Assembly (NCBI RefSeq): GCF_024168645.1
Contig: NZ_JALJWF010000001.1
Location: 4,281,501-4,345,500, forward strand
Direction of reading: 5' to 3'
Length of the DNA: 64,000 bases
DNA from: Pseudomonas sp. GGS8
GTDB taxonomy: Bacteria; Pseudomonadota; Gammaproteobacteria; Pseudomonadales; Pseudomonadaceae
Part shown: positions 41,685-42,788 of the stretch, piece after piece
Layout: each line of letters begins with the position of its first letter
Numbering within the stretch: position 1 is the first letter of the stretch
Program-made: the position numbers and the translations under genes
The notes under the pieces: generated by a model
What the model was told of the DNA's origin: nothing
Seen by the model: the letters and a program-made list of their open reading frames with translations, nothing else
The model's database searches: none

Positions 41685-41776
41685 AGTGGGAGCGGGCTTG
41701 CCCGCGATGAGGTCGGCACATCCTGCATTGATGTCGACTGGCAGACCGCTATCGCGGGCAAGCCCGCTCCCACAGG
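41685..41776. repeat. REP palindrome pair
   Basis: CAGTGGGAGCGGGCTTGCCC and the inverse ATCGCGGGCAAGCCCGCTCC followed by CACAGG are about 45 bases apart. It lies downstream of the LysR gene and upstream of the DUF6124 leader. Confidence 0.92.
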
Positions 41777-41939
41777 GGAATGTGTGTTGATTCGAGGGCT
41801 GTGTTTAGGGGTGTTTAACGTTACTTCCTGAAAGCTACAGATCCTTGCGCCGTTGCCTACGACTGCGCCAGAATCCGCCGGCTTGTGCGCTTTGGGCCTG
41901 GTCTTTATCGTTTCCGTGTCGCTGCCAATCAGTGATCGG

Positions 41940-41949
41940 GTTTAGCGAC
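41940..41949. repeat. Direct repeat GTTTAGCGAC, copy 1
   Basis: GTTTAGCGAC recurs at 42102-42111 in the same orientation, 162 bases downstream. The two copies flank the three-way-junction leader of the DUF6124 gene. Confidence 0.6.
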
Positions 41950-42018
41950 TCGGACTATTCAAAGTGCATCAGTGCCCCAGACTTAATTGCCGACTTTTGA
42001 CGCCTGCAATTACGTTAT

Positions 42019-42094
42019 GGTGGCTGTATGCGGGAGACCCTCGGGTCTACCGGGTGCCTTTGACCGGTTCGCTAACCTGCATACAGTCGCCACC
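42019..42094 (+). ncRNA. Structured leader element of the DUF6124 gene (three-way junction)
   Basis: An outer stem joins GGTGGC (42019-42024) to GCCACC (42089-42094) and TGTATGCGGG (42025-42034) to CCTGCATACA (42076-42085), leaving a GTC bulge. Inside are two hairpins, AGACC-CTCG-GGTCT (42035-42048) and ACCGG...CCGGT (42049-42068). A further option, GGTT-CGCT-AACC, competes with the second. The element ends 54 bases before the start codon of the gene at 42149. It resembles leaders I recall before other Pseudomonas DUF6124 genes. It could be a regulatory RNA or a DNA structure. Confidence 0.65.
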
Positions 42095-42101
42095 CTTACT
42101 T

Positions 42102-42111
42102 GTTTAGCGAC
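42102..42111. repeat. Direct repeat GTTTAGCGAC, copy 2
   Basis: This is the downstream copy of the 10-mer at 41940-41949. It lies between the structured element and the ribosome site AAAGGAG of the DUF6124 gene. Confidence 0.6.
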
Positions 42112-42148
42112 AGGTTCTGGTGGTGCTATTTTCCAAAGGAGATTCACC

Positions 42149-42517
42149 ATGTTCAAAGCCACACCTAACCCACCAGAAACCGACGACGTTTCCCCCTACG
42201 ATCCCCTCGATCCCAAAAAACTCCACGAAGCCGCCGAACGCGCCCTCGATCATTACCTCAAGCCCTCTGACCCCAAGACCCCACGCAAACCGAGCACGAT
42301 TTACACTGTCGCCCCGGGCATCGACATCGAAGAGCTACTGACCAATGCCTGCGAGTCCTTTGCCTCGGCCAAGGTGATCGCCAGTGACTGCGCCGGGTTT
42401 CTGCAGGGGCCGCAGCGCAATACGATACTGGGCGTCGCGCAACTCATCATGTTCGGCGAACTGGCGGTGAGTCGGGCGCTGGATAGTCTGGAGCTGAAGG
42501 CCAACCCGGCCCTGTAA
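42149..42517 (+). CDS. DUF6124 (formerly DUF3077) family protein
   Basis: The 122-residue protein is one of a Pseudomonas-specific family present in many copies per genome. The family pattern is clear: MFKATPNPPETD and KKLHEAAERALDHYLKP near the start, then IDIEELLTNACESFASAKVI and GPQRNTILGVAQLIMFGELA. The N-terminal 50 residues are polar and proline-rich and the rest is helical. The function is unknown. AAAGGAG is 6 bases upstream. A structured leader precedes it. Confidence 0.85.
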   Translation: MFKATPNPPETDDVSPYDPLDPKKLHEAAERALDHYLKPSDPKTPRKPSTIYTVAPGIDIEELLTNACESFASAKVIASDCAGFLQGPQRNTILGVAQLIMFGELAVSRALDSLELKANPAL

Positions 42518-42526
42518 CCTGATCCC

Positions 42527-42675
42527 CTGTGGCGAGGGGGCTTGCCCCCGTTCGGCTGCGCAGCAGTCGTAGAACCTGTGCATGCGGTTTGCCAGACAGA
42601 CGGTGACTGCAGGTTTTGGGTCTGCTTCGCAGCCAACGGGGCGATGCGGCGTTCCGACAAGCCCCCTCGCCACAG
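42527..42675. repeat. 150-bp REP-flanked element, copy 2 (inverted)
   Basis: This copy of the element at 30595-30744 lies in opposite orientation. Its reverse complement begins with the same 43 bases, including GGCTTGTCGGAACGCCGCAT, and ends with the same inverse arm; the central 65 bases have diverged. Confidence 0.9.
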
Positions 42676-42788
42676 AGGTTGCGTTGTCTGTGTATGGCGT
42701 TCCCGCCGTACAAAGAGAGCACGTACATCCAATTTTTCCCTACCCCTTGGCGGCACTATTCAATCCAATGATTGAACAGGGGAGAGCC

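Follow-up and report, generated by a model that had tools for sequence, protein, structure and literature searches.

Primary work on the C4 antisense RNA of phage P1 is reportedly that of Citron and Schuster, of Heinrich and of Hartmann. As described in three papers, RNase P releases phage C4 from a longer transcript and C4 acts in trans, with its b' loop partly covering the ribosome-binding site and its a' segment providing specificity (PMC5320573, PMC8198154, PMC8546580). P1 C4 is about 77 nt long and its cleavage site is a GG; the same source reports 21 C4-like sRNAs in Acinetobacter baumannii AB5075, whose targets it leaves open, and attributes a previous prediction of C4 in Pseudomonadales to Weinberg et al. 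2010 (PMC5320573).

Our analysis of a window of 64,000 nucleotides from Pseudomonas sp. GGS8 (the whole stretch of DNA analysed, which belongs to a 6.72 Mb assembly in one contig) places a C4 element in the leader of a DUF6124 gene. A first-pass annotation had described this leader as a compact fold flanked by direct repeats and without an assigned function, and had offered a riboregulator, an RNA thermometer or a DNA recognition structure as readings. The riboregulator reading was right, and the kind already has a name, Rfam C4: the family match has an E-value of 3.1e-13 for the window, far beyond chance, and the repeats fall on the antisense contact sites. We consider it probable, at roughly 0.83, that the element is a C4-family antisense RNA that would silence DUF6124 through pairing of a' and b' with a2 and b2, the latter at the ribosome-binding site.

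The C4 element and its surroundings

The contacts lie on one strand in a nested order, a1-b1-b'-a'-a2-b2 (Table 1). The direct repeats noticed in the first pass, GTTTAGCGAC at 41940-41949 and 42102-42111, are the sites of a1 and a2; what that annotation did not include is that they are complementary to the internal a', and that the loop of hairpin 2 has complementary sites of its own, b1 and b2. The predicted fold of 42019-42095 (-43.8 kcal/mol) recovers the outer stem and the two internal hairpins that had been proposed, with both a' and b' unpaired. The GG at 42019 and the 77 nt from there to 42095 fit RNase P processing to about 77 nt. The competing hairpin that had been put forward as the basis of a switch, GGTTCGCTAACC, is present by sequence, but the switch can do without it. 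The upstream target copies of C4 are represented in Rfam by c4-a1b1 (RF03163).

Table 1. Features of the C4-DUF6124 cassette, in window coordinates
Feature	Position	Strand	Basis
Promoter-like TTGTGC-17-TATCGT	41883..41911	+	just 5' of the a1 hairpin; predicted start near 41918
c4-a1b1 element (RF03163)	41905..41956	+	46.1 bits, cut-off 46.7 (0.6 under); E 4.3e-10
a1 (TTTAGCGA), upstream a contact	41941..41948	+	7 contiguous Watson-Crick pairs with a'
b1 (TCAAAG), upstream b contact	41959..41964	+	6 contiguous Watson-Crick pairs with b'
C4 antisense RNA (RF01695)	42013..42097	+	Rfam covariance model, 76.7 bits, cut-off 45
Predicted mature C4 (77 nt, starting at the outer-stem foot GG)	42019..42095	+	analogy with P1 C4
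b' (CCTTTGA), hairpin 2 loop	42057..42063	+	unpaired in predicted fold; complementary to b1 and b2
a' (TCGCTAA), junction	42069..42075	+	unpaired in predicted fold; complementary to a1 and a2
a2 (TTTAGCGA), downstream a contact	42103..42110	+	7 contiguous Watson-Crick pairs with a'
b2 (CAAAGG), downstream b contact	42134..42139	+	6 contiguous pairs with b'; overlaps Shine-Dalgarno AAAGGAG
DUF6124 gene, 122 aa, predicted target	42149..42517	+	PF19619, 72.2 bits, cut-off 27

The stem structure of C4 is under selection. Across the 35 C4s of the window assembly, standard pairs fill 94.8% of cells compared with 87.4% in shuffles, and sliding the partner columns by 1-3 lowers pairing to 30-41%. Changes on both sides occur in 13 of the 27 stem pairs, a number reached by 4 of 500 shuffles, and the cells changed on both sides number 74 versus 19.5 in shuffles (0/500). 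These are the compensatory substitutions whose presence or absence the first-pass annotation had set as a test of the fold. An unguided consensus fold recovered the outer stem and hairpin 1 and missed hairpins 2 and 3, the third being the weakest in covariation (1 of 5 pairs).

A conserved promoter-like sequence precedes a1, which places the predicted promoter upstream of the element and not downstream of it, the other possibility that had been raised against the fold. Anchoring on the a1 hairpin was possible for 90 of 116 C4 loci (35 from the window assembly and 81 from relatives); the -10 bases T, A and T occur in 81 of these 90, and a TTG at -35 in 56. Two candidate additions to the model were left out. 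An intrinsic terminator between b1 and C4 was one of these, a run of at least 6 T being found in just 3 of the 35 window-assembly copies. The other was an extra contact of the C4 3' strand with the a2-b2 spacer (42112-42133), which in many copies looks like the 5' strand of the outer stem of C4; the observed value was reached by 172 of 20000 permutations with Watson-Crick pairs and by 2052 of 20000 with G-U allowed.

The gene behind the leader is DUF6124, as had been annotated, and the cassette sits between a LysR-type gene and a DoxX gene (Pfam assignments). The DUF6124 frame is open through C4 back to a TTG at 41987 (41987-42517, 176 aa); the ATG at 42149 has a good Shine-Dalgarno sequence and is a start common to many paralogues. 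Palindromes of the GTGGGAGCGGGCTTGCCCGC and GTGGCGAGGGGGCTTGCCCCC types, which we take to be REP-like, flank the cassette at 41685-41774 and about 42528-42680.

Cognate specificity and the proposed mechanism

Our comparison of the 35 copies in the assembly indicates that most C4s match contacts at their own locus and very rarely those at other loci. Cognate duplex energies beat non-cognate ones for a'-a2 (z -9.7), b'-b2 (z -12.1), a'-a1 (z -11.2) and b'-b1 (z -9.3), with 0/20000 permutations in each case, and the crossed controls were null (a'-b2, z 0.1; b'-a2, z -0.3). These energies were computed with T in place of U as input and with special-loop bonuses skipped. The contact windows were chosen after sequence inspection, and the control is a permutation among loci with the same windows, ignoring relatedness.

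A two-contact rule, defined as at least 6 contiguous Watson-Crick pairs at both a2 and b2, gives a similar picture. It is satisfied by 27 of 35 cognate combinations versus 4 of 1190 non-cognate ones, so 8 of the 35 copies fail it at their own locus. Requiring 7 + 7 pairs leaves 18 cognate and 0 non-cognate combinations, and relaxing to 5 + 5 gives 32 versus 77. When the two contiguous runs are summed, 25 of 35 copies score highest, without ties, at their own target, and 30 of 35 do so with the upstream sites added. The window C4 satisfies the rule with its own target alone, through a b contact that is short (6 pairs), and no other C4 of the assembly satisfies it there. A cruder measure, the energy of the duplex formed by the entire b'a' segment (also computed with T as input), is less favourable: it puts the own downstream target first in just 9 of 35 copies, and 14th for the window copy. 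The own upstream region comes first in 22 of 35, and the window copy is among these.

In 24 of the 28 copies having at least 6 pairs at b2, the match overlaps a Shine-Dalgarno-like tetramer. The b' loops of all 35 copies differ within the assembly, and therefore each C4 would silence mainly its own gene. Read from these pairings, the copies would each be a private off-switch of the neighbouring gene, nearly non-overlapping with the others. Among relatives, with one locus taken per distinct b' (49 of 81), the rule is satisfied by 40 of 49 cognate and 44 of 2352 non-cognate combinations. Both downstream contacts are also cognate in a genome of the same family and another genus (G261; 13 C4s; 0/5000 each), and the cognate signal is weak in G211 (7 of its 10 C4 matches; 338 and 198 of 5000).

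Because the window element has the same parts in the same order as phage C4, we infer the same mechanism for it. By analogy with P1 and P7, a single transcript would start ahead of a1, RNase P cleavage at the GG (42019) would release a 77-nt RNA, and the released C4 would bind a2 and b2 of DUF6124 transcripts and block their translation. In the uncut transcript a1b1 is predicted to be able to occupy b'a', by which silencing would be relieved or delayed.

Predicted folds of the leader suggest that the upstream copies a1b1 may mask C4. For the long leader (41919-42165), the fold of lowest energy (-87.6 kcal/mol) has a1b1 paired with b'a' over almost the full length; constraining C4 to its own fold gives -84.2 kcal/mol, and thus the masked and C4-fold states are close in energy. 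When the upstream part is limited to 100 bases, the window copy stays in its C4 fold, while C4 is predicted to open in 17 of 35 precursors. A C4 fused to the upstream piece of its own locus gains a mean of -3.96 kcal/mol, versus -2.01 with a foreign piece (0/20000). In a joint predicted fold of C4 and its target, there are no intermolecular a' or b' pairs and each RNA folds on itself. The antisense duplex is thus not predicted by the folding program, by which, in our judgement, loop contacts of this kind are poorly modelled.

The same results bear on a purely cis-acting attenuator, in which a1b1, C4 and a2b2 would be competing folds within a single transcript, from which no separate RNA would be released. 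Such a device would account for the nested order on the same strand, for the extra energy gained with the own upstream 100 bases and for the precursors predicted to open C4. However, the conserved outer stem of C4 would be superfluous for an attenuator alone, and P1 C4 acts in trans (PMC8546580). We regard a purely cis-acting device as unlikely, and retain the trans-acting antisense RNA as our preferred reading.

Joint turnover, distribution and cargo

At the LysR-DoxX chromosomal site, b1, b' and b2 change jointly among relatives. Four loci (L039, L041, L092 and L094) have the same LysR-DoxX surroundings and b core as the window, and in two more at this site (L037 and L038) all three elements are changed to another code, with b' TTATACC. 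A third b code is found at the same site in G016 (L117), together with a different a code, matching on both sides. For the three b codes, b' forms 6-9 pairs with its own b1/b2 and 4-5 with those of the others. In G029 (L118) the site is empty, the LysR-DoxX gap being about 0.19 kb compared with about 1.14 kb where the cassette is present. One palindrome of the flanking type is retained in this empty site. The TTATACC code recurs in L036, which has an upstream LysR gene, but there LysR is about 2 kb off and no DoxX match was found.

Further same-site sets defined by matching flanks (L068/L070 and L089/L115) have different b' loops that fit their own b2 and not the other's; the largest flank-matched set (17 loci) contains adjacent copies and may pool more than one site. 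Mismatched codes occur as exceptions in L048b, L059b, L060-L062 and L088, and the b2 of L060-L062 fits the b' of L050 and L053 instead. L042 has b1 and b2 of the L037 type and a b' unfit for both. We offer only tentatively, as possible rather than probable, the broader idea that a phage immunity RNA was domesticated into dozens of self-silenced cassettes whose two-part code is rewritten in step at a site, each copy controlling its own small anti-regulator gene and avoiding cross-talk with siblings and incoming phages.

The main role of the C4s might instead be to confer immunity to phages or cassettes that arrive with the same code, the neighbour gene being a passenger. C4 derives from a phage immunity system, a similar role is suggested for the Acinetobacter copies in PMC5320573, and b' codes that differ between relatives at the same site would suit this role. 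Against it, the codes match the leader of the neighbour gene, and a DUF6124 match turned up in 1 of 50,697 phage records, close to the end of that record; the count for plasmid records was 0 of 72,556. By its dN/dS values, moreover, the DUF6124 gene is under purifying selection (0.09-0.15 for the window versus L036-L039 and L041, and 0.22 versus the paralogue L016). An immunity role is, in our estimate, about as improbable as the attenuator, and silencing of the neighbouring DUF6124 gene remains the reading that we follow below.

The coupling of C4 to DUF6124 is seen well beyond the window. In the assembly, 34 of the 35 C4 matches exceed the family cut-off, as do 13 of the 31 c4-a1b1 matches. 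C4 lies directly ahead of 20 of the 26 DUF6124 matches by coordinates, which bears out the statement in the first-pass annotation that similar leaders precede other DUF6124 genes; near the six remaining genes, the best C4 match with filters off was 13.6 bits (E 0.17). In named Pseudomonas, 76 of 80 DUF6124 loci (the best 80 of 175) have a C4, and in 12 of these over 500 bases separate the C4 end from the matched gene; one of the four C4-less loci, L112, includes just 48 bases ahead of the gene. In IMG/VR contigs the count is 73 of 80 (the best 80 of 122).

A genus sample gave a C4 match in 92 of 99 genomes, with at least 20 matches in 39 of the 99 and at least 39 in eight; these counts are lower bounds, as 39 candidates were scored per genome. 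In a phylum-wide sample, C4 was found in 42 of 299 genomes (14 candidates scored per genome), and DUF6124 over the cut-off in 4 of 299 (20 candidates scored per genome), all of the window's genus and including the window's own assembly. Some cassettes appear to have decayed: L025, L029, L030 and L031 have no ORF of 45 codons starting 30-65 bases after C4, with both downstream contacts lost in L025 and L030, one in L029 and none in L031. L013 has its start codon in another frame than its DUF6124 match.

An AlphaFold2 model of DUF6124 has three helices (mean pLDDT 79.6, pTM 0.47) and gave no match to PDB folds at E 0.001 or better. Its sequence had no meaningful match in the PDB, and the window protein has no matches in NCBIfam, PHROGs or PADLOC. 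The first-pass annotation had also placed such leaders ahead of DUF3077 genes, and one DUF3077 gene of the window assembly is indeed directly behind a C4 (L009). A profile comparison of DUF6124 with one DUF3077 protein returned a probability of 8%, so we claim no homology between the two.

Other cargo and one neighbour provide hints, by analogy, that DUF6124 may act on a regulator, as an anti-regulator. Two C4s of the window assembly (L006 and L035) lie ahead of Bro-N (antirepressor-like) proteins, and the L006 cargo also matches phage anti-repressor families. Among nine cargo proteins tested in G261 (loci L226-L235 of its 13 C4s), Bro-N scores over the cut-off in six and under it in two more, and no DUF6124 was found in that genome with 20 candidates scored per genome. 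The ninth, at L231 (C44:9730-11618), is a QslA-like protein behind a C4 (Pfam QslA, 31.5 bits, cut-off 25; E 1.6e-4 versus PDB 4ng2). QslA is a LasR anti-activator in its Pfam description, and a C4 ahead of a relative of a quorum-sensing anti-activator would be of interest by itself. In the window assembly, a C4-less DUF6124 gene (L250/L252) adjoins, in the opposite strand sense, the gene of an HTH_3 plus Peptidase_S24 protein that is CI/LexA-like (L252:11640-12776; G000:C1, about 4203139-4204275).

A type I toxin-antitoxin system, in which DUF6124 would be toxic and C4 its RNA antitoxin, would share with this locus the RNA pairing at a ribosome-binding site beside a small gene, the many copies and the empty site in a relative. 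Yet 6 of the assembly's 26 DUF6124 genes are kept with no C4 ahead of them, and the leader of one C4-less gene (L247, G000:C1:923900-925100) keeps the promoter-like sequence and the a1 hairpin, with no C4 body found. By sequence, moreover, the DUF6124 protein is no short membrane peptide, and PADLOC had no match for it. We think this less likely than either the attenuator or the immunity role. An RNA thermometer or DNA recognition structure is highly improbable: the Shine-Dalgarno region does fall in a hairpin in the predicted fold of the target alone, but neither device explains the locus-private complementarity of a' and b' on both sides or their joint change.

Relation to known systems

The C4 family and the presence of many C4-like copies in one Acinetobacter genome are already known. 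New here are the likely C4 target, a private code of two contacts seen across 35 copies, and the in-place turnover of that code. We found no report of a DUF6124 target, private codes or turnover in a literature search that left subscription journals and supplements (including the PMC2864571 additional file) outside its range, and none linking C4 to DUF6124 by title or abstract. C4 has long been known from phage, and its likely target can now be read from the genome for dozens of chromosomal copies at once. The private code lends itself to tests in which only a few bases are exchanged. Some 35 antisense regulators with almost no overlap, all within one cell, would amount to a ready set of parts for gene control, and this natural array would be a case study in the evolution of RNA specificity. 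The link to C4 also gives a handle on the DUF6124 family.

Among described elements, c4-a1b1 resembles the upstream part of the leader in having a hairpin followed by the a1 repeat, although the window copy scores just under the curated cut-off and 13 of the 31 assembly matches lie over it. The a1b1 region (41918-41988) also has a weak match to isrK (RF01394), at 23.5 bits far below the cut-off of 50, and we do not assign it there.

The closest relative is the C4 of the c4-icd-ant operon of P1 and P7 (RF01695). The window element resembles it in covariance score, three-helix fold, GG at the outer-stem foot and predicted 77-nt product, and, by the published descriptions, in its a' and b' contacts, with a1b1 upstream and a2b2 at the downstream ribosome-binding site (PMC5320573, PMC8198154, PMC8546580). 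Unlike the phage element, the window copy lies at a chromosomal LysR/DoxX site, its predicted target is DUF6124 rather than icd/ant, and its assembly has 35 copies with different b' loops. In contrast to the P1-type immI operon (c4-icd-ant), in which antirepressor genes follow C4, the next gene in the window is DUF6124, which has no PHROG match. The Group 1 C4-like sRNAs of A. baumannii AB5075, which we liken by description, also form many chromosomal copies with variable a' and b' (PMC5320573); the difference is that in the window assembly the gene that follows C4 points to the likely target, and this match was compared with those to every other copy.
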